Shown here: piece after piece, positions 12,314 to 22,847 of the stretch
Numbering within the stretch: position 1 is the stretch's first letter
Layout of the letters: each line of letters starts with the position of its first letter
DNA from: Bacilli bacterium
GTDB lineage: Bacteria; Bacillota_I; Bacilli_A; RFN20; CAG-826
Direction: 5' to 3'
DNA length: 64,000 bases
Assembly (NCBI GenBank): GCA_017454295.1
Contig: JAFTDF010000020.1
Coordinates: 62,001 to 126,000 of the forward strand
Program-made: the position numbers and the translations under genes
Notes under the pieces: model-generated
What the model was told of the DNA's origin: nothing
The model's input: only the letters and a program-made list of their open reading frames with translations
Database searches by the model: none

Positions 12314-13876
12314 TTAACGTTCTGTGAACCGATAAAGATAGCCGTAAATGTCCTTCAAAGACGGATACATTTTCTTATAGGCATTATGGAATAGGTTTTG
12401 GTAGATCTTGTGGTTTTCCATGTTCGGCTCGAAACGGTCTTTGACGCGGACCATGGCCTTGACCGCGGTTTCGGCATCGGGATAGACGCCCAGGGATAAG
12501 AAGGTGCCGATGGCCGCGCCCAAAGAAGAGGTTTCGTTGGTTTGGACGCGTTCGACGGGGACGCCGAAGACATCGGCGAAAAGTTGACAAACTTCGGGGC
12601 TTTGGGATCCGCCGCCGGAAACACGCAAAGCAGAGAAGGGATGGCCAATCTTCTTTTGGAAATAAAGGCCGGATTGATACAGTTCCATCGCGATGCCTTC
12701 GATAAGGGCTTTATAGACGTGGAGCCTGGTCGTGGATTCGGAAAACCCGACGATGGATCCTTTGACCGCGGGATGATCTAGTGGAGATCCCCAATAAGGC
12801 TGTAGCAACAATCCGTCGCTGCCCGCGGGGATGTCGAATAGGTGCTGGTTGAATTCTTGGGGGTCGGTTTCGCTGACGATTAAGTCCTCGACCTCCTTGG
12901 CGCCGAATTCCTTTAAGAACCAGTTGATCATCCAGAATCCGCGATAGATTTGGACGTCCATGTTATAAACGTCTTTTTGGATGGAGGGATAAGCCGGCAA
13001 AAAAGGCACGGGGTTTATGAATTTCTTCGTGGTGGTTTCGATGGTGCAGGCCGTGCCAAGGCTGATGGCGGCAATCGAATCGTCATAGACCCCAGAGCCT
13101 AAGGTCTCACAGGATTTGTCGCTTCCCCCGGCAAATAAGGGTAGACCCACGGGAAGTCCGGTTTGCTTGGCGCCTTCTTCGGAAATCCTACCGAGTTCGC
13201 CCTGGGTGTCGACCAGTTCGCAAAGTTGGTCGCGACGGAGGGAGAAGATTTGGCCCTGCAAATGCTTGGGCGGATTGGCATACCACTCTTTCTTTTTATA
13301 GTTCAAAGGATAGTGGCCCGTGAAATCGGAGGGGGAATCCTTTAATTGCCCCGTAAGGCGATAGACGAAATAGGTGGAAATCGAAACGTATTTGTCGATT
13401 TTGGCGAAGTTCTCGGGCTCGTTCTCTTTGATCCAGTTGGCCATGGTGCGGCGCCGATTCATCTTGATGGTATCGGCTTTTCCGACCATCCAGAATAGGA
13501 AACGGGAAAGCGGGGGCAAAGGCTCCTCGCATTTGGCCATGCGCGAATCCAGCCAAAGGATCATCGGGCGGATGACGTTGCGGTCTTTGTCGAGCAACAC
13601 CGCGGAATCGCGGAAGCAATCGAGCTCGATGCCTTGGACGTCTTTGATCAATTCGGGGTGTTCTTTGGCAAGCGACTTCGTGCATTCACAAAGGCAATCC
13701 CAGTAATAGGCGGGATCCATTTCGGCATAGCCGATCTTGGGGCTGTAATAAGCAGGTTCGTAAACTTTCTTGGCTAGGGCCAAACAGTTTCCTTCTTTGT
13801 CGTAAATGCAGGCACGGACCGATTGGGTACCGAAATCGAACGTCAGGGCGAGGGGAGATGAAGCGGTTGTTTGCAT
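12314..13876 (-). CDS. FGGY-family carbohydrate kinase (xylulokinase-like)
   Basis: A 520-residue sugar kinase starting MQTTASSPLALTFDFGTQSVRACIYDKEG, with the ATP-phosphate loop DFGTQS, a D-C-F-R-D-S-A segment matching the substrate region, and the C-terminal ATPase motif RVSGGGSQSPEVCQLFADV. FGGY kinases phosphorylate pentuloses, glycerol or related polyols; the substrate here cannot be fixed, although xylulose or a related ketose is plausible. I start it at 13876 because the in-frame upstream extension contains its own -10 box (TATAAT, 13891-13886 on the minus strand), which ends 9 nt before this ATG. There is no ribosome-binding site, so the mRNA is nearly leaderless. No transporter or isomerase lies next to it. 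Confidence 0.88.
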   Translation of the reverse strand: MQTTASSPLALTFDFGTQSVRACIYDKEGNCLALAKKVYEPAYYSPKIGYAEMDPAYYWDCLCECTKSLAKEHPELIKDVQGIELDCFRDSAVLLDKDRNVIRPMILWLDSRMAKCEEPLPPLSRFLFWMVGKADTIKMNRRRTMANWIKENEPENFAKIDKYVSISTYFVYRLTGQLKDSPSDFTGHYPLNYKKKEWYANPPKHLQGQIFSLRRDQLCELVDTQGELGRISEEGAKQTGLPVGLPLFAGGSDKSCETLGSGVYDDSIAAISLGTACTIETTTKKFINPVPFLPAYPSIQKDVYNMDVQIYRGFWMINWFLKEFGAKEVEDLIVSETDPQEFNQHLFDIPAGSDGLLLQPYWGSPLDHPAVKGSIVGFSESTTRLHVYKALIEGIAMELYQSGLYFQKKIGHPFSALRVSGGGSQSPEVCQLFADVFGVPVERVQTNETSSLGAAIGTFLSLGVYPDAETAVKAMVRVKDRFEPNMENHKIYQNLFHNAYKKMYPSLKDIYGYLYRFTER

Positions 13877-13885
13877 GATAGAGAC

Positions 13886-13891
13886 ATTATA
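13886..13891 (-). promoter_or_regulatory. -10 box of the FGGY kinase gene
   Basis: A perfect TATAAT ends 9 nt before the ATG at 13876. A start site 7 nt downstream leaves a leader of about 3 nt. No convincing -35 hexamer is seen at 16-18 nt. Confidence 0.55.
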
Positions 13892-13959
13892 CATCCGGCC
13901 AGCCGTTAACGGCCTCAAAATATATGAGGGGGCGAGCGAGGCTCGATGGGGCGCCCGAG

Positions 13960-15138
13960 TCAGTCCAAGGAGACAATTTTCCCGGCGGCCAGAACCAGGT
14001 CGTGCGGCCCCGTCACCTGATACATGAAGGCAGAATCCAAAACAAATTCTTTCTCAGGCATTGATTGCGGGATGACCTGGGATTTGGTAAACGCATAGCC
14101 GGTCACCGCGGTCTCGGTAAACATAATGGAGGCATCTTGTTTCAGACTTCCGGACTCGAACGTCCCTTTAGAAATGGCGTAGGTTCCTTTTTGAAACAGT
14201 CCCTGTTGCTTTGCAACGGCCTTTAGGTCTAGGGTGTTGGAGCATTCGATTTTGGGCATACAGAAGGCCACGCCCCCTCGATAGGCGTCTTTGTGTGAAA
14301 AACATTCGCCGAAATCAAAGTCCGAAAACAGCGCGGACGTCGCGGGTTGCTTTGGTTTGATGAAGCGAAGACGGCAATCCTTGTTTTGCAAAGGATATGA
14401 GAAGGCCTCCCACGACTCGGTGGCGCAATAATAATCGGTTTCGGCGCTCGCATCCATAAACGGGTAGGCACCTTCGCCATTAAATGGCCTATCGGCGCTC
14501 TTTTTGAGACCTATCGCATAGGGAAGGTTGAAAAAGAAGCTTCCGATCATCGTTGCCGGTCCGTCGCATTCCGGCGCCTCGGAGACGTGGCCGTTTGTAA
14601 CTTCTTTTGCCCATTGGGAAAGGAATTGCTTTTGGTCCTCTGTTTTACCGAGATAGCTGCACCCAAGTTCGTTGGCCATTCTTTCTGCCAGCCGAGGTGG
14701 GATTTCTGTTCCGTTTTCATCCACCAAGATGCTGGAAGGGATTACCGTCGTCTCATTGGACTCGGGGGAGGTCTTAACCGTGACTGCGTTGTAGAGCTCG
14801 GCAACCACGTTCAGAGTGGCTTGGTTTCCCTTTGTTCCAAGAATCGACCACTCTTCTTCTGGAACCGATTCCTCATCGAAAAGCAAATAGGTCAAGGCAG
14901 AAGTAAGATAGTAGGACAACGGGAAAAATACATAATTTTCGGCTCCTACCGCCTCTTCCGCTTTTTGGTTTGCTTCTTTAAGAAGCGCGTTTATGTAATC
15001 ATAAGTAGGCTCGGTTAATGGGACTGGATCCGCCGCCTTTGGCGCATTGGCAATGAGCAAAGGCCAAGTCGTCCCGTTCGGATGGGACTGGCAAGAAACC
15101 AAGGCCACAAGAGCGAAAGCAAACAGCAGGCGCTTCAT
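13960..15138 (-). CDS. Serpin-like lipoprotein
   Basis: A 392-residue secreted lipoprotein. The signal peptide MKRLLFAFALVALVSC has a lipobox (LVSC, Cys16). An in-frame ATG four codons upstream (15150) is an alternative start. The mature part follows the serpin fold: NYVFFPLSYYLTSALTYLL matches the N-terminal 'N-x-x-x-S-P-x-S' helix, SQWAKEVTNGHVSE matches 'W-x-x-x-x-T-x-G-x-I', TMIGSFFFNLPYA matches the s3A 'N-A-x-x-F-K' strand, VAFCMPKIE and LDLKAVAKQQGLF match 'LPKF' and 'DL...LG', and FMYQVTGPHDLVLAAGKIVSLD matches the C-terminal 'FLF-I-D-x-x-T-x-x-x-L-F-x-G-R-V'. The reactive-loop hinge (ETAVTGYAF) lacks the run of small residues found in inhibitory serpins, so protease inhibition is uncertain. 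It is divergent from an ECF sigma gene. The assignment is from pattern comparison by eye. Confidence 0.7.
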   Translation of the reverse strand: MKRLLFAFALVALVSCQSHPNGTTWPLLIANAPKAADPVPLTEPTYDYINALLKEANQKAEEAVGAENYVFFPLSYYLTSALTYLLFDEESVPEEEWSILGTKGNQATLNVVAELYNAVTVKTSPESNETTVIPSSILVDENGTEIPPRLAERMANELGCSYLGKTEDQKQFLSQWAKEVTNGHVSEAPECDGPATMIGSFFFNLPYAIGLKKSADRPFNGEGAYPFMDASAETDYYCATESWEAFSYPLQNKDCRLRFIKPKQPATSALFSDFDFGECFSHKDAYRGGVAFCMPKIECSNTLDLKAVAKQQGLFQKGTYAISKGTFESGSLKQDASIMFTETAVTGYAFTKSQVIPQSMPEKEFVLDSAFMYQVTGPHDLVLAAGKIVSLD

Positions 15139-15150
15139 GCGTTTACCCAT

Positions 15151-15356
15151 TTTGTTGTTTCACTATTTCCAGCAACCGCTTGTGCTGACGCAAACAGAAT
15201 CGTCATAAACAGATTTAACACAGCTTTCCTCCCGGCCCGGCTTTGTCTTTGCCAAACAAGAGCAACTAAACCCCAAAAATGTGTCGCTTCTTTTTTCGAC
15301 ACATATTCGCGCTGGTTGGCTCTATTATAAATAGAAGGCCGGCAACGGATTTGAAA
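15151..15356. other. Divergent intergenic region between serpin-like gene and ECF sigma gene
   Basis: About 206 nt without a gene. On the plus strand TATTATAAAT (15323-15332) is a plausible -10 region for the sigma operon, leaving a leader of roughly 20 nt without a clear ribosome-binding site. No convincing promoter could be assigned for the leftward serpin-like gene. If the ECF factor controls its own locus, its promoter elements should be in this stretch, but I cannot define them from one example. Confidence 0.4.
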
Positions 15357-15830
15357 ATGGACAAAAGCGCCGCGGAACAGCTCTATCGCACGTATGGCCG
15401 ACTGGTCAAATACGTTGCCTTTTCTGTGCTTGAAAACGACGAAAAGAGCGAAGACGTCATGATGGAGTCGTTTGCCCGTTTATTCGAGGCGTTGGAAAAG
15501 AGGCCGATTCCGAACCCAAAAGCCTATCTGTGTCGCATTGCCGTTCGGCTAGCATTAAAAGAGAAGAAGAGCTTGCCAGAAGAATTAAACGAAGACCTCG
15601 TTTGTTCTGATTCTGGTGCCTTGGCAAACCTTGAAGAGGATTTGTGCAAAGCCATGAATGGCTTAAGCGTTTTGGAGCGCAAAACCGTGACCTTAAGAGC
15701 GGTTTGCGAGATGTCTTATTTTGAAATTTCTAGAATCTTGGGCGGAACAGCTCTCTCGGTCCAATCGAGATACCGCCGGGCAATTCGAAAACTAAGAGCC
15801 GAATTGGGAGAGGGTTATGCGGAAAAGTAA
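15357..15830 (+). CDS. ECF-type RNA polymerase sigma factor
   Basis: A 157-residue protein with region 2 at the N terminus (AEQLYRTYGRLVKYVAFSVLENDEKSEDVMMESFARLFE, the core-binding and -10 helices) and region 4 at the C terminus (LSVLERKTVTLRAVCEMSYFEISRILGGTALSVQSRYRRAIRKL, an HTH). No region 1 or 3 is present, as expected for the extracytoplasmic-function class. I chose the ATG at 15357 because region 2 starts there. The gene overlaps the next one by 14 nt, the usual arrangement with a cognate anti-sigma factor. It is divergent from the serpin-like lipoprotein, suggesting that this envelope protein could be part of the regulon. Confidence 0.85.
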   Translation: MDKSAAEQLYRTYGRLVKYVAFSVLENDEKSEDVMMESFARLFEALEKRPIPNPKAYLCRIAVRLALKEKKSLPEELNEDLVCSDSGALANLEEDLCKAMNGLSVLERKTVTLRAVCEMSYFEISRILGGTALSVQSRYRRAIRKLRAELGEGYAEK

Positions 15831-16419
15831 GTTTGAAGTGCGTTTGGCTAAGGAACTAGAAAAAGGGTTGCCCCAAACAAAAAAGTCGATTGAAGAAATT
15901 GCCTCTTTTCGAGCTAAAAAGCCCCCATATCAAAAGAAAAATTGGCCGGTTCCCGCCGTGGCTTGTGGTTTGCTCTTGGCGCTGGCGATTGTGATAATCT
16001 TTGCGATTCGCCCAACCTTAACCGGCCCTTCGGTTATCGATTCGTCAGAAGGTCTCTCTAATTCGGGGGCGGCATCGCAACAAGAGGAAGATTATGTGTT
16101 GCTCGGCAATCCCCTGCCTTTCCAAGAGGGGCGTTTTGAGGTTGAAGTTGTCGGGTCTGCCCCAGAAGAGATGCAAAGCGGCACCAATGAAGCGGTAATT
16201 GCAAAAGAATCCGGGTTAGATTTTTCAATCAACCTTTCGGATTATTCCGCTTTCCCGGGGTTCCTTAACCTTTCGGGCCCCGTTACAAACGGCCTTGCTG
16301 TTGTAGGCGGCACAGACGGTCTAATCGACGCCACGGTCGTCGTAAGCGGGAGGGTCTATTCGGTTTCGTTTTATCGAATCGAAATATCACCAAGCGTTTT
16401 ATTTGCCCATTTCCATTGA
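15817..16419 (+). CDS. Membrane protein, probable anti-sigma factor
   Basis: A 200-residue protein with a basic cytoplasmic segment (residues 1-45), one membrane helix (about 47-65, VPAVACGLLLALAIVIIFAI) and an extracytoplasmic part of about 135 residues containing a Ser/Gly/Glu-rich linker and a beta-rich end. It overlaps the ECF sigma gene by 14 nt and starts behind an AGAGGG ribosome-binding site. Position, topology and overlap argue for an anti-sigma factor that holds the sigma factor and senses a signal outside the cell. I see no zinc-binding H-x3-C-x2-C motif and no named sensor domain, so this is context-based. Codon choice in this gene and its neighbours looks less C-biased than in the housekeeping genes. 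Confidence 0.6.
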   Translation: MRKSKFEVRLAKELEKGLPQTKKSIEEIASFRAKKPPYQKKNWPVPAVACGLLLALAIVIIFAIRPTLTGPSVIDSSEGLSNSGAASQQEEDYVLLGNPLPFQEGRFEVEVVGSAPEEMQSGTNEAVIAKESGLDFSINLSDYSAFPGFLNLSGPVTNGLAVVGGTDGLIDATVVVSGRVYSVSFYRIEISPSVLFAHFH

Positions 16420-16504: not shown

Positions 16505-17485
16505 ATGATTATCACTAGAGCTCCATTCCGGGTTTCCTTCTGCGGCGGCGGAAGCGACATCCCCTCGTTCTACGAGAAATACGGTGGTTGCGTCCTTTCG
16601 ACCACCATCCGCAAATACGTGTATTTGACGATCAACAAAGCGTTTAACCGCGACACGATCACCCTCAAATACTCGCAAACCGAAGTGGTGGACGATCCCA
16701 GTAAGATCCAACACCGCATTTTCCGGCAGACCCTCCGTGACTTTGGCACCACCGGGATCGAAATCACCTCGATGGCCGACATTCCCGCTGGCACCGGGCT
16801 TGGTTCCAGTTCTTCTTTCACGGTCGCCCTTTTGAAGCTCCTTTATGCCTATAACGAAAAATCCGTTTCGGCTTATAAAGTCGCCAAGGAAGCCTGCGAC
16901 ATCGAAATCAACCAACTCGGCAACCCCATTGGCAAACAGGATCAATTCGCCGCGGCTTTTGGCGGTCTTCGTTATTACGAATTCCAACCCGATGGCTTCG
17001 TCAAAGTCGAGCCTATCATCATGCGCCACGAGTCCTATCGCCATTTGGAAAGCTCCATCATGATGTTCTATACGGGTCTCGTCCACGACGCGAATAAGAT
17101 TCTTGGGGAAGAGACCAAAAACCTCGCCTCCGCCAACGAAAAGATCAACGGCACGCTCCAGCTTTGTGAGCTCACCCGCCAACTGAAAAACCACCTCGAA
17201 GAAAACGACGTCGATGCTTTGGGTGACATCCTCAACGCTTCGTGGAACATCAAACGCGAACTCGCTTCCGGCATCACCAACAAAGCCATCGATTATTACT
17301 ATGAGCAAGGTATCAAAGCCGGCGCCACCGGTGGCAAACTCTTAGGGGCCGGAGGCGGTGGATTCCTCCTCTTCTATGTCCCCGATAGCAGCAAGAAGCC
17401 GCTTGTCCGCGCCGCTTTGAAAGACCTCATCGAAATGCCGGTCGAACTCGATCAATCCGGCGTCTCCGTCATCTACACCGAATAA
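16505..17485 (+). CDS. hddA: HddA, D-glycero-D-manno-heptose 7-phosphate kinase (GHMP kinase)
   Basis: A 326-residue GHMP kinase. The three family motifs are clear: PFRVSFCGGGSD near residue 7, the ATP loop PAGTGLGSSSSF near residue 96, and GGKLLGAGGGGFLLFYV near residue 277. The QLGNPIGKQDQFAAAFGG segment is typical of the HddA/FKP-like group that acts on D-glycero-alpha-D-manno-heptose 7-phosphate (C1 phosphorylation). It is the first gene of an operon, 2 nt before the nucleotidyltransferase-phosphatase fusion and followed by gmhA, so pathway context supports the substrate. Confidence 0.88.
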   Translation: MIITRAPFRVSFCGGGSDIPSFYEKYGGCVLSTTIRKYVYLTINKAFNRDTITLKYSQTEVVDDPSKIQHRIFRQTLRDFGTTGIEITSMADIPAGTGLGSSSSFTVALLKLLYAYNEKSVSAYKVAKEACDIEINQLGNPIGKQDQFAAAFGGLRYYEFQPDGFVKVEPIIMRHESYRHLESSIMMFYTGLVHDANKILGEETKNLASANEKINGTLQLCELTRQLKNHLEENDVDALGDILNASWNIKRELASGITNKAIDYYYEQGIKAGATGGKLLGAGGGGFLLFYVPDSSKKPLVRAALKDLIEMPVELDQSGVSVIYTE

Positions 17486-17487
17486 CC

Positions 17488-18798
17488 ATGCTCGCTTTGA
17501 TCCAAGCCGGCGGAGCCGGAACCCGTTTAAAACAAATCACGGGCGATTTGCCCAAGCCGATGGTCCCCATCTGCGGCAAGCCCATTCTCGAACACCAAGT
17601 CCTTTCTTTGAAGAAAGGTGGCGTCGATCGCATCGTCATGGTCGTCTCCGCCTCTTCCACCGCCGTCCAGGAGTATTTTGGCAACGGCGAGAAGTGGGGC
17701 GTTGCGATTTCCTATATCGTCGAATCCCGTCCTTTGGGTACCGCCGGGGCCCTTTGCTATTTGGCCCGCGATTTCCACGAAGATTTCTTCTTAGTCATGG
17801 GCGATTTGATGCTCGACGTCTCGTGGGAACGCTTCTACGCCTTCCACAAGAAGAAGAAAGCCATCGTCACGACCTTCGCCCACCCCAATTCCCATCCCTT
17901 CGATTCCGATTTGCTCGAGCTCGACGAAAACGACAAAGTCATCCGTTTGCTTTCTAAGAAAGAGCCGCGCGATTTCTTCTACCATAACGTCACCAACGCT
18001 GGGCTCTATGTCGTGTCGAAGCTGTTGCTAGAAACCTTTGAAGGTATGGATGAGCCCATCAAGATGGACTTCGAAAAAGAGCTCTTAGCCCCCTCGGTGG
18101 CCTCGGGCTTGGTCTATGCCTACCGCTCCAGCGAATATGTCAAAGACTGTGGCACCCCCGATCGTTACGAAGCCGTCACCAAAGACTGCAACGAAGGCGT
18201 CATTTCCGCGAAAAATCTGCAAAATCCCCAAAAATGTATCTTTTTGGACCGCGACGGCACGATCAACCAATTCGGCGACTTCGTCCGTAATGCCGATCGC
18301 ATGGAACTTGTGCCCACCGCCGGCAAAGCCATCGCCCGCATCAACAATTCGCCCTATCTTGCCATCTGCGTGACCAACCAACCCGTCATCGCCCGTGGGG
18401 AAACCAGTTTAAGCGAACTCGCTAATATCCACGCCAAGATGGAAACGCTCCTTGGCCAAGAAGGCGCCTATCTCAACGACCTCTATTTCTGCCCCCACCA
18501 TCCCGACAAAGGATTCCCGGGAGAACGCCCCGAATACAAAATCGCCTGCAAATGCCGTAAGCCCGGCATCGAAATGCTTCAAAAGGCGAAAGAGAAATAT
18601 AACATCGATTTCTCCAAATCCTGGATGGTCGGCGATACCTGCCAAGACGTGCAAACCGGCATCAATGCCGGCTGCCGTACCGTGCTCTTGCTCGGTGGCG
18701 ATCCCCATCCCTATGCAAAATACGGGGATGCCAAACCCGATTACGTTTGCCAAACCCTCGACGAAGCCGTCGAATATATCATGTCCCAGGAGGAATAA
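17488..18798 (+). CDS. Fusion of HddC-type nucleotidyltransferase and GmhB-type heptose bisphosphate phosphatase
   Basis: A 436-residue two-domain enzyme. Residues 1 to about 235 are a sugar-1-phosphate nucleotidyltransferase (LIQAGGAGTRL loop, then LPKPMVPICGKPILEHQ). Residues from about 249 on are a HAD-IIIA phosphatase: FLDRDGTINQ is the catalytic DxDGT motif near residue 254, followed by CVTNQP, a zinc knuckle CPHHPDKG...CKCRKP specific to GmhB, and WMVGDTCQDVQ. Together they would remove the C7 phosphate from heptose 1,7-bisphosphate and then join the heptose 1-phosphate to a nucleotide, most likely GDP by analogy to Aneurinibacillus and Campylobacter HddC. ADP or another nucleotide cannot be excluded. 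The gene lies between hddA and gmhA. Confidence 0.87.
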   Translation: MLALIQAGGAGTRLKQITGDLPKPMVPICGKPILEHQVLSLKKGGVDRIVMVVSASSTAVQEYFGNGEKWGVAISYIVESRPLGTAGALCYLARDFHEDFFLVMGDLMLDVSWERFYAFHKKKKAIVTTFAHPNSHPFDSDLLELDENDKVIRLLSKKEPRDFFYHNVTNAGLYVVSKLLLETFEGMDEPIKMDFEKELLAPSVASGLVYAYRSSEYVKDCGTPDRYEAVTKDCNEGVISAKNLQNPQKCIFLDRDGTINQFGDFVRNADRMELVPTAGKAIARINNSPYLAICVTNQPVIARGETSLSELANIHAKMETLLGQEGAYLNDLYFCPHHPDKGFPGERPEYKIACKCRKPGIEMLQKAKEKYNIDFSKSWMVGDTCQDVQTGINAGCRTVLLLGGDPHPYAKYGDAKPDYVCQTLDEAVEYIMSQEE

Positions 18799-18800
18799 CC

Positions 18801-19406
18801 ATGGACTTCATCCAAGAAATCAACGAATACTACGAACGGGAAAAGAAAGTCATCGATGCCCTCAACCGCGAAGAACTCAACGCGGCGATGAATTGTCTCC
18901 TCGATGCCTATGAACGGGGCGCCTATATCTACGTCTTCGGCAATGGCGGCTCTTCCGCGACCGCTTCCCACATAGTGTGCGATTTCAACAAAGGCACCTG
19001 CTACGAAATCGACAAGAAGTTCAAATTCGTTTGTCTCAATGACAACCTTCCGATCCTGATGGCCATTGGCAACGATGACGACTTCTCCAACGTCTTCGTC
19101 TATCAACTCAAAGACCGTTTGACCAAAGACGATGTGGTACTGGCCATCTCTGGCTCGGGCAACTCCAAGAACGTCGTCAAAGCGGTTGATTACGCCAAGG
19201 AAGTCGGTGCGAAAGTCATTGCCATGACCGGCTATTCCGGCGGTAAGATCGCCAAAGTCGCCGATTATCAGATGCACGTCCCCGTCGACGATATGCAAAT
19301 CACCGAAGACCTCCACATGGGTTTCGACCATATGATGATGCAAATCCTCTGGAAATACCTCCAAGCCAAAAACGGCCGGGAAGCCATCTACAAAATCAAC
19401 CAGTAA
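18801..19406 (+). CDS. gmhA: GmhA, sedoheptulose 7-phosphate isomerase
   Basis: A 201-residue SIS-domain isomerase that converts sedoheptulose 7-phosphate to D-glycero-D-manno-heptose 7-phosphate, the entry step of bacterial heptose synthesis. The start at 18801 is set by a strong GGAGG 7-8 nt upstream; a longer in-frame reading would run into the previous gene. Typical features are YVFGNGGSSATASHIVCDF, the phosphate-binding LAISGSGNSKNVVKAVDYA, and the C-terminal EDLHMGFDHMMMQIL helix, which resembles the GmhA active-site HxxxxH region. It completes a pathway with the two preceding genes. No glycosyltransferase that uses the product follows directly. Confidence 0.92.
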   Translation: MDFIQEINEYYEREKKVIDALNREELNAAMNCLLDAYERGAYIYVFGNGGSSATASHIVCDFNKGTCYEIDKKFKFVCLNDNLPILMAIGNDDDFSNVFVYQLKDRLTKDDVVLAISGSGNSKNVVKAVDYAKEVGAKVIAMTGYSGGKIAKVADYQMHVPVDDMQITEDLHMGFDHMMMQILWKYLQAKNGREAIYKINQ

Positions 19407-20183: not shown

Positions 20184-22847
20184 ATGGCAGAAAAGAAATA
20201 CGTCTATTCCTTCAAGGAAGCCCATCAAGAAAAGCTGGGCAAGGAAATCCTTGGCGGAAAAGGCTTCGGTCTTGCCGAGATGACCGCCGCCGGGATCAAC
20301 ATCCCCGCCGGTTTCACGGTTACCACCGAAGTTTGCAATCTCTATCGTGATTGCGGCAACAAGATCCCCGAGGAGATCTGGAACGACATCGTCGCCCACA
20401 TCCACGGTATCGAAGAAGCCAACAAGAAATCCTTCGGCGGCGAAAAAGACGGCGTTATGCCGCTTCTTGTCTCCGTCCGTTCCGGCGCCCGCGTCTCCAT
20501 GCCTGGCATGATGGACACCATCCTCAACCTCGGCTTGAACAACGTCGTCGTCGAGAAGCTTGCGAAATTCGCCGGCAACGACCGTTTCGCTTGGGATTCC
20601 TATCGTCGCTTCATCTTGATGTTCACCAACATCGCCAAAGGCCATCCCAGAACCGAGATGGACGCGATGCTTGACAAACTCAAAGAAGAGCGTGGCTACA
20701 AGCTCGACACCGAAGTCACCGTCGACGAACTCAAAGTCCTCGTCGGTCAGTACAAGGAATACTACAAAAAGGTCTTCGGCGAAGAATTCCCGACCGATCC
20801 TTATGAACAGCTCCGTGAAGCGGTTGCCGCCGTCTTCCGCAGCTGGGACACCCCGCGTGCCAACTACTATCGTCTCCAAAACGGCATCCCCTATACCTGG
20901 GGCACCGCCGTCAACGTCCAGTCCATGGCCTTCGGCAACATGGGCGAAGATTCCGGTACTGGTGTTGCCTTCTCCCGCGATCCTACGACCGGTGAAAAGA
21001 AGGTCTATGCCGAATTCCTTCCCAACGCCCAGGGCGAAGACGTCGTCGCTGGCGTTCGCACCCCGCTCCACATCGACGAATTGAAGCGTCGTATGCCGGA
21101 AGTCTACGAAGAATTCATGGCCACCATCAAACGCATGGAGACCTACTTCCACGATATGCAGGATATGGAGTACACCATCGAAAAGGGTACCCTCTACTTC
21201 CTCCAGACCCGTAACGGTAAGCGTACCGCCCGGGCCGCCCTCAAGATCGCCTGCGACCTCGTCGACGAAGGCTTGATCGATGAAAAGGAAGCCGTGCTCC
21301 GCGTCGAACCGAAGCAACTCAACGACCTCCTCCACCCCACCTTCGATAAGAAGGACCTCGATGCCCACACCCCGATCATCCGCGGTCTTCCCGCTTCCCC
21401 GGGTGCCGGCACCGGTGCCATCGTCTTCACCCCGGAACTCTGCAAAGAATGGCATGATGCCGGTAAGAAGTGCGTCCTCGTCCGTGCCGAAACCTCCCCT
21501 GAGGACATCATCGGTATGGCCAACTCCGAAGCCATCCTCACCGCCCGTGGCGGTATGACCTCCCACGCCGCCGTCGTTGCCCGTTCCATGGGTAAGTGCT
21601 GCGTCGTCGGTGCTTCCGAAATCGTCGTCAACGAAGAAGAAAAGATCGTCAAAGTCGGTGACAAGGTCTACCACGAAGGCGAAGTCTTCTCCGTCGATGG
21701 TTCCACCGGTCTCGTCTATGAAGGCGCGATCAAGATGGTCCCTGCCGACCTCGGTGGCGACTTCGGTCGTATGATGGGCTGGGCCGACAAATATCGTCGC
21801 CTCAAAGTCCGCGCCAACTGCAACACCCCCGAAGACGCGAAGAACGCCCAGCGCTTCTCCGCCGAAGGTATTGGTCTGTGCCGTACCGAACGTATGTTCT
21901 TCGCCGATGACCGCATCCTCAATATGCGTGCCATGATCCTCTCCGATACCACCGAGCAGCGCGAAGCCGCCCTCGAACGGATCCGTCCCTTCATGGTCGG
22001 CGACTTCTACGAGATGTACATGGCCAACCCCGACTCTCTCGTCAACATCCGTCTCCTCGATCCGCCTCTGCACGAATTCCTCCCGGAAATCACCGACGAG
22101 AAGAACATCGAAGACATCGCCCAAAAGCTCAACGTCTCCGAACAAAAGGTCAAAGATCGTATCAACCAGCTCCATCAGGCCAACCCGATGATGGGCTTCC
22201 GTGGCATCCGCCTCTGCGTCGCCTATCCGGAAATCTACGCCATGCTCTCCCGCGCCATCATCCAGGCTGCCTTCAAGGCCGGTGATGAACTCGGCAAACA
22301 GATTGAGCCGGAAATCATGATCCCCTTAGCCGGTGAACTCAAAGAATACATGTGGGCCAAGAACACCGTCGTCGCCGCCGTCGAAGACGAGTTCAAGAAA
22401 CAAGGCCGTTCCCTCAAGTACCATGTCGGTACCATGATCGAAGTCCCCAGAGGCGCCCTCCGTGCCGGGGACCTCGCCAAGGAAGCCGAATTCTTCTCCT
22501 TCGGTACCAACGACCTCACCCAGCTCACCATGGGCTTCTCCCGTGATGACGTCCCGCAGTTCTTCCCCGTCTATCAAGAACGCAAGATCTACGAATTCGA
22601 TCCCTTCCAGACCATCGACGTCGATGGCGTTGGCGAACTCGTGAAGATCGCCGTCGAACGTGGCCGTGCCGCCCGCCCGGACCTCCTCATCGGTGTCTGT
22701 GGCGAAACCGGTGGCGATGCCGCTTCGATCATGTTCTATGACAAAGTCGGCCTCGACTACGTCTCCTGCTCTCCGTTCCGTGTCCCGCTTGCCCGCCTTG
22801 CCGCTGCCCAAGCCGCGATCATCCACGAACGCGAAGCCAAGAAGTAA
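20184..22847 (+). CDS. ppdK: Pyruvate, phosphate dikinase
   Basis: A full-length 887-residue PPDK, which interconverts PEP, AMP and diphosphate with pyruvate, ATP and phosphate; in anaerobes it often runs glycolytically with diphosphate. The N-terminal ATP-grasp part starts KEILGGKGFGLAEMTAAGINIPAGF. The phosphohistidine domain has GGMTSHAAVVARSMG with the catalytic His at residue 461. The C-terminal PEP domain has AEFFSFGTNDLTQLTMGFSRDD and the GVCGETGGD loop with the catalytic Cys. Extreme C-ending codon bias, a strong ribosome-binding site and its own promoter and terminator suggest high expression. A 690-codon open frame on the opposite strand is a by-product of that codon bias. Confidence 0.98.
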   Translation: MAEKKYVYSFKEAHQEKLGKEILGGKGFGLAEMTAAGINIPAGFTVTTEVCNLYRDCGNKIPEEIWNDIVAHIHGIEEANKKSFGGEKDGVMPLLVSVRSGARVSMPGMMDTILNLGLNNVVVEKLAKFAGNDRFAWDSYRRFILMFTNIAKGHPRTEMDAMLDKLKEERGYKLDTEVTVDELKVLVGQYKEYYKKVFGEEFPTDPYEQLREAVAAVFRSWDTPRANYYRLQNGIPYTWGTAVNVQSMAFGNMGEDSGTGVAFSRDPTTGEKKVYAEFLPNAQGEDVVAGVRTPLHIDELKRRMPEVYEEFMATIKRMETYFHDMQDMEYTIEKGTLYFLQTRNGKRTARAALKIACDLVDEGLIDEKEAVLRVEPKQLNDLLHPTFDKKDLDAHTPIIRGLPASPGAGTGAIVFTPELCKEWHDAGKKCVLVRAETSPEDIIGMANSEAILTARGGMTSHAAVVARSMGKCCVVGASEIVVNEEEKIVKVGDKVYHEGEVFSVDGSTGLVYEGAIKMVPADLGGDFGRMMGWADKYRRLKVRANCNTPEDAKNAQRFSAEGIGLCRTERMFFADDRILNMRAMILSDTTEQREAALERIRPFMVGDFYEMYMANPDSLVNIRLLDPPLHEFLPEITDEKNIEDIAQKLNVSEQKVKDRINQLHQANPMMGFRGIRLCVAYPEIYAMLSRAIIQAAFKAGDELGKQIEPEIMIPLAGELKEYMWAKNTVVAAVEDEFKKQGRSLKYHVGTMIEVPRGALRAGDLAKEAEFFSFGTNDLTQLTMGFSRDDVPQFFPVYQERKIYEFDPFQTIDVDGVGELVKIAVERGRAARPDLLIGVCGETGGDAASIMFYDKVGLDYVSCSPFRVPLARLAAAQAAIIHEREAKK

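Follow-up and report, generated by a model that had tools for sequence, protein, structure and literature searches.

The alpha-heptose pathway of C. jejuni proceeds through an isomerase, a kinase, a phosphatase and a nucleotidyltransferase, in that order (PMC10680097). Acholeplasma oculi encodes all four enzymes, and heptose has been reported in the glycolipids of A. modicum (PMC4221730). In the window (the whole stretch of 64,000 nucleotides that was analysed here, from an uncultured Bacilli bacterium of the gut), we identified three plus-strand open reading frames, separated by gaps of 2 bases (16505-17485, 17488-18798 and 18801-19406), that by homology encode all four alpha-heptose activation activities (GmhA, HddA, GmhB and HddC) together. 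The features are as follows.

16505 to 17485, + strand: HddA-like GHMP kinase (putative heptose 7-phosphate 1-kinase), 326 aa, assigned from family, PDB and motif matches
17488 to 18195, + strand: N-terminal half of the fusion (residues 1-236), PF00483 sugar-1-phosphate nucleotidyltransferase, HddC/GMPP type
18229 to 18795, + strand: C-terminal half of the fusion (residues 248-436), HAD-IIIA phosphatase, GmhB type
18801 to 19406, + strand: GmhA-like SIS isomerase of a variant subfamily, 201 aa from ATG (a 219-aa version begins at an upstream TTG)
12314 to 13918, - strand: FGGY carbohydrate kinase, left neighbour, conserved in the genus (synteny marker, outside the pathway)
20184 to 22847, + strand: pyruvate phosphate dikinase-like gene, named from sequence, conserved right neighbour (synteny marker, outside the pathway)

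The fusion gene (17488-18798, + strand) encodes one protein of 436 residues, with the transferase half N-terminal and the phosphatase half C-terminal. Both halves are matched by family and fold, and the fusion described in an earlier, sequence-only reading of this DNA is real. Residues 1-235 match PF00483 (E=4e-29) and HddC (E=4e-28), although mannose-1-phosphate guanylyltransferase outscores HddC for this half. Its motifs are intact (GGAGTRL at 8, PKPM at 22, GD at 105 and KDCGTP at 219), and thus the GGxGTRL, PKP, GD and (K)DxGTP signature of HddC is present, with a predicted HddC fold. Residues 248-435 match GmhB (PRK08942, E=2e-44). Here too the motifs are intact (FLDRDGT at 252, VTNQ at 295, CPHHP at 335, CKCRKP at 354 and VGDTCQD at 381), giving the DxDGT, TNQ, Cys/His metal loop, CRKP and GDxxxD elements of GmhB, with which the predicted fold agrees. 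The model of the fusion has a mean pLDDT of 92.9. Its transferase half superposes on Yersinia HddC 5xhw (TMt 0.84) and its phosphatase half on E. coli GmhB 3l8e (TMt 0.92, rmsd 1.9).

The best NCBIfam model for the kinase is HddA (E=4e-51) and its best PDB match is 3k85 (E=5e-50), with WcbL and C. jejuni HddA also among the top PDB matches. The kinase retains R9, D18, GTGLGSSSS from 96, QDQ at 145-147 and GAGGGG from 281. The catalytic residues of WcbL are R13 and D163 (PMC4691232); equivalents of both, and the GHMP motif, are present. The isomerase matches GmhA (TIGR00441, E=5e-30). Canonical GmhA has an active site with Glu, Gln and a Ser-Thr-Ser phosphate loop (PMC7705670), and the window protein is changed at all three positions: the metal/catalytic Glu is Asp (H57..D61), the Gln is Glu (E169..H177) and the phosphate loop is SGS rather than STS. 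Both His positions are kept, and for this reason the protein was filed as GmhA-like. As a test of membership for each enzyme we used the curated NCBIfam equivalog cut-offs, below which all four scores fall (HddA 174.5/600, GmhB 151.2/178, HddC 98.4/300 and GmhA 104.7/209.45). The best-scoring families of the kinase, isomerase and phosphatase are nevertheless HddA, GmhA and GmhB, respectively. The window enzymes are thus divergent members of their families.

The operon is probably a functional heptose-activation operon, judging from its homologies. The GmhA-like isomerase would produce heptose 7-phosphate and the HddA-like kinase would convert this to heptose 1,7-bisphosphate. The 7-phosphate would then be stripped off by the C-terminal part of the fusion, and the N-terminal part would couple heptose 1-phosphate to a nucleotide, GMP being the most likely one. 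The best matches are suggestive of GTP as the likely nucleotide of the fusion, its nearest enzymes being GDP-mannose pyrophosphorylases and HddC. The sequence-only reading had proposed these four steps from three genes, and family matches, PDB matches and motifs bear this out. It had also suggested that the fusion could channel the bisphosphate. This we do not adopt, since the bisphosphate is the substrate of the phosphatase and the 1-phosphate that of the transferase; any channelled intermediate would thus be heptose 1-phosphate. A suggested link to host ALPK1 signalling was also set aside, as the known agonists are NDP-beta-D-manno-heptoses (PMC11573728) and the window route would be an alpha route by its enzyme types.

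Transketolase is present in the source genome, which is 90% complete, as are GT2 and GT4 glycosyltransferases. LpxC and GT9 had no match in this genome, in agreement with the proposal of a cell without LPS. No glycosyltransferase adjoins the operon in the window, also as first described. The product probably enters a surface glycan or glycolipid via glycosyltransferases encoded elsewhere in the genome. Given the enzymes and reported glycolipid heptose of Acholeplasma, it is reasonable to place the product in a glycolipid or surface polysaccharide. Directly upstream of the operon (window 15279-16419) lie a gene for an ECF-type sigma factor and, after it, one of unassigned family; this pair was not found at the equivalent site in the relatives examined. 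A serpin-like protein with a lipoprotein-like start is encoded at window 13960-15150 (Pfam Serpin E=8e-4, which does not reach the curated cut-off).

The fusion is widespread, occurring in several phyla, and is not peculiar to the source genome. Full-length fusions were identified in Bacilli MAGs, Bacteroides ilei, and one MAG each of Bacteroidia, Gastranaerophilales and Acetivibrio, as well as on Rhizobium, Methylovirgula and Lawsonia plasmids. When the class was sampled evenly, matches at E <= 1e-40 were obtained in 13 of 296 genomes. The plasmid proteins are annotated as HAD-IIIA family hydrolase, the only label in the records seen, and no published account of an HddC-GmhB fusion was found in the literature searched. 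GHMP kinase and SIS partners usually accompany the fusion across Bacteroidota, Gastranaerophilales, Clostridia, Rhizobium, Methylovirgula and Lawsonia, and several distant copies adjoin glycosyltransferases. The gene order kinase, fusion, isomerase had been called unusual; within the genus it is the usual order.

The variant isomerase is part of this wider pattern. Its Asp and Glu are shared by the isomerase partners in the genus modules, G066, G053, Gastranaerophilales, the Bacteroidia MAG, the Acetivibrio MAG and Methylovirgula. The Rhizobium SIS protein also has Asp and Glu, with a phosphate loop that is different again. In the fusion modules of the window type that were examined the loop is mostly SGS. 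Bacteroides ilei-type fusions are instead paired with canonical GmhA. A further GmhA-like SIS protein, in G022 (L106:9537-10157), lacks the first metal-ligand His (SSPLV instead of xxxHxV). It adjoins apparent sugar kinase, ABC transporter and glycoside hydrolase genes, and from these neighbours is probably catabolic.

Because the isomerase is a variant, its exact sugar product is not assured. The enzyme types match the heptose pathway, and to this extent the heptose assignment of the sequence-only reading stands. The three isomerase substitutions, and a transferase half closest to mannose-1-phosphate guanylyltransferases, would fit an operon that activates another sugar, with the isomerase using a different ketose phosphate (e.g., fructose 6-phosphate) or giving another epimer, and GDP-mannose or another heptose as the end product. 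We consider this unlikely, as the kinase resembles heptose kinases most closely (3k85, WcbL and C. jejuni HddA) and is distant from fucokinase and galactokinase, the phosphatase half is of the GmhB kind, and the Bacteroides ilei fusion that is paired with canonical GmhA is 46% identical.

The source genome (G000) also encodes a second HddA-like protein paired with a canonical GmhA-like protein, on contig C14 (C14:152668-154307; L103:14668-16307). The surrounding nucleotidyltransferase, dehydratase and DegT-type genes resemble those for CDP-dideoxyhexose synthesis, and a GT2 is also present. This is probably a surface-polysaccharide cluster and a candidate site of heptose use. It further encodes a second nucleotidyltransferase-like protein (L104:2885-3655) with the signature GGEGIHLPGSGITTAKGM instead of GGxGTR...PKP, and thus possibly another inactive transferase. 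Neither GmhB nor HddC was found beside the C14 pair, and a search with the fusion as query found no other GmhB-like protein in the source genome. The window fusion may therefore also serve the C14 pair. That it mainly does so, the window kinase and isomerase being redundant, is quite improbable. The unaccompanied C14 pair, a similar pair in G001 and the C. jejuni capsule pathway, which also borrows a GmhB encoded elsewhere (PMC10680097), point in that direction, but the window operon is complete, with its genes 2 bases apart, and most intact genus genomes lack a second HddA.

An indication of how the parts of the heptose-activation operon work together comes from sister species. The genus site lies between the FGGY kinase and the pyruvate phosphate dikinase-like gene. 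Among the 31 genus genomes (MAGs of 61-100% completeness), 11 have no fusion, and another 11 encode a fusion orthologue in which the transferase motifs GGxGTRL, PKP and (K)DxGTP are lost and the phosphatase motifs are all present. The transferase lesions differ between lineages. At least one of the FGGY kinase and the dikinase neighbours 10 of these 11 degenerate copies. The dikinase was recognised at some sites by its antisense shadow ORF, and the G005 copy was placed by partial flanks, namely a dikinase shadow ORF where the contig ends, together with the conserved genes that come next.

Protein and profile searches identified neither HddA nor GmhA in nine of the 11 genomes with degenerate copies, including G004 at 100% completeness. 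The residual weak hits in these nine are to galactokinase-sized proteins or larger SIS proteins. The other two (G019 and G026) encode a second, intact operon elsewhere, split over two contigs in G026. Nine genomes of the genus have an intact transferase at its own locus, and each of them also has HddA and GmhA (the G018 contig ends within GmhA). The HddA-GmhA pair is about 5 kb away from the fusion in G015, and the kinase stands apart in G002 and G003. A membrane GT2 glycosyltransferase is encoded on the opposite strand between kinase and fusion in G003 (L076:11205-12779), and a relative of it occupies the same family position in G002 (L007:4444). A possible GmhA remnant, a gene of 182 aa next to three of the degenerate copies, was rejected as such because it fails to match the GmhA profile and by eye looks like an inorganic pyrophosphatase.

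Constraint on the two halves is uneven. In the first 230 residues, the only positions invariant across the degenerate set are M1, L41, G45, G83, H114 and P197, compared with about 45 in the phosphatase half. All 11 copies match GmhB models and 5 of 11 match PF00483. Since most pairs are saturated in NG86 dS, constraint was compared by dN ratios and identity. The ratio of transferase to phosphatase dN is 1.5-2.7 in degenerate pairs and 1.1-2.0 in intact pairs, ranges that overlap. The degenerate phosphatase half is 54-69% identical between species, with pairwise dN/dS of about 0.09-0.17 where measurable (dS being near saturation). In the G004 model both folds are kept and confidently predicted, and the former catalytic loop (residues 11-21) has pLDDT below 50.

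In the phosphatase-domain tree, no bootstrap tree had a single change to the degenerate state, and the starred branches force at least two changes once three distant rows are removed. A single degenerate clade on this tree is not formally rejected (AU test, p=0.077). The starred branches of the flanking-gene tree, which leaves out the dikinase gene, force four changes. Loss of the transferase half thus probably occurred at least twice, and repeated loss is the better reading.

That the degenerate copies are decaying pseudogenes heading for loss, with no function of their own, would fit the 11 genomes that lack a fusion and the absence of HddA and GmhA from most genomes with such copies, but is very improbable for frames that are open and free of internal stops in 11 genomes and for a phosphatase half with all its catalytic motifs, the identity and low dN/dS given above and a confidently predicted fold.

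The co-loss of HddA and GmhA with the transferase motifs supports a transferase that works together with these two enzymes. A phosphatase site that stays complete in their absence suggests a second substrate or function for the phosphatase half, independent of heptose. In genomes without HddA and GmhA, the transferase half would have lost its catalytic loop and persisted as a folded domain, with the phosphatase intact. More tentatively, and at somewhat less than even odds, the fusion was converted several times independently into a phosphatase that acts on a non-heptose substrate, with the dead transferase as a regulatory or scaffold part and a second function that outlives the heptose pathway. 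The converse case is seen in the Acetivibrio MAG fusion (L011:6001-7179), which has intact transferase motifs and has lost its phosphatase catalytic motifs (FLGWDSLADA instead of FLDRDGT, and the Cys/His loop missing). Overall, the best explanation, to which we assign a probability of about 0.7, is a heptose-activation operon that has been dismantled repeatedly in the genus and whose phosphatase has a second, heptose-independent substrate.

The fusion itself is not unique; the decayed transferase half with a kept phosphatase is the new part. Orthologues at one site, with the transferase either intact or motif-less, constitute a natural experiment linking the transferase to HddA and GmhA. On the more tentative reading above, the second function of the GmhB-type half would be an undiscovered one that survives loss of the heptose pathway. 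The degenerate copies point to a directly testable role for GmhB-type phosphatases beyond heptose synthesis, and suggest how sugar nucleotidyltransferase folds may turn into non-catalytic domains.

Such a domain is already known in GMPPA, a non-catalytic paralogue of GMPPB that regulates GMPPB (PMC11228364). Like the degenerate fusions, as we read them, GMPPA has a nucleotidyltransferase fold without catalysis; unlike them, it has no fused phosphatase and regulates a separate active paralogue. The beta-pathway NDP-heptose synthetases (mono-, di- and tridomain) resemble the fusion in that they too may be multidomain, with an NDP-heptose as end product. However, they combine kinase/nucleotidyltransferase or isomerase/kinase/nucleotidyltransferase domains, make beta-heptoses and include no phosphatase domain (PMC11573728). 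The described alpha-heptose pathway (PMC10680097) has the same four activities, the same kinase and phosphatase types and the same nucleotidyltransferase fold as the window. The window differs in joining phosphatase and nucleotidyltransferase in one protein, in the altered active site of its isomerase and in scores that fall below the cut-offs. HddA, GmhA, HddC and GmhB of Acholeplasma oculi (Aocu_04590-620) are an alpha-heptose set that likewise occurs in a bacterium without LPS (PMC4221730); in the description compared here they are reported under four gene names and loci. The Rhizobium, Methylovirgula and Lawsonia plasmid fusions have the same transferase-phosphatase order and a GHMP kinase nearby in all three cases (a SIS protein in two of three). 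They are 36-43% identical to the window fusion, and the Rhizobium protein differs in its additional C-terminal P-loop-like domain. In the Rhizobium etli plasmid fusion (L109:5974-7923) this kinase-like P-loop domain (GICGRSRSGKST) brings the total to three domains.
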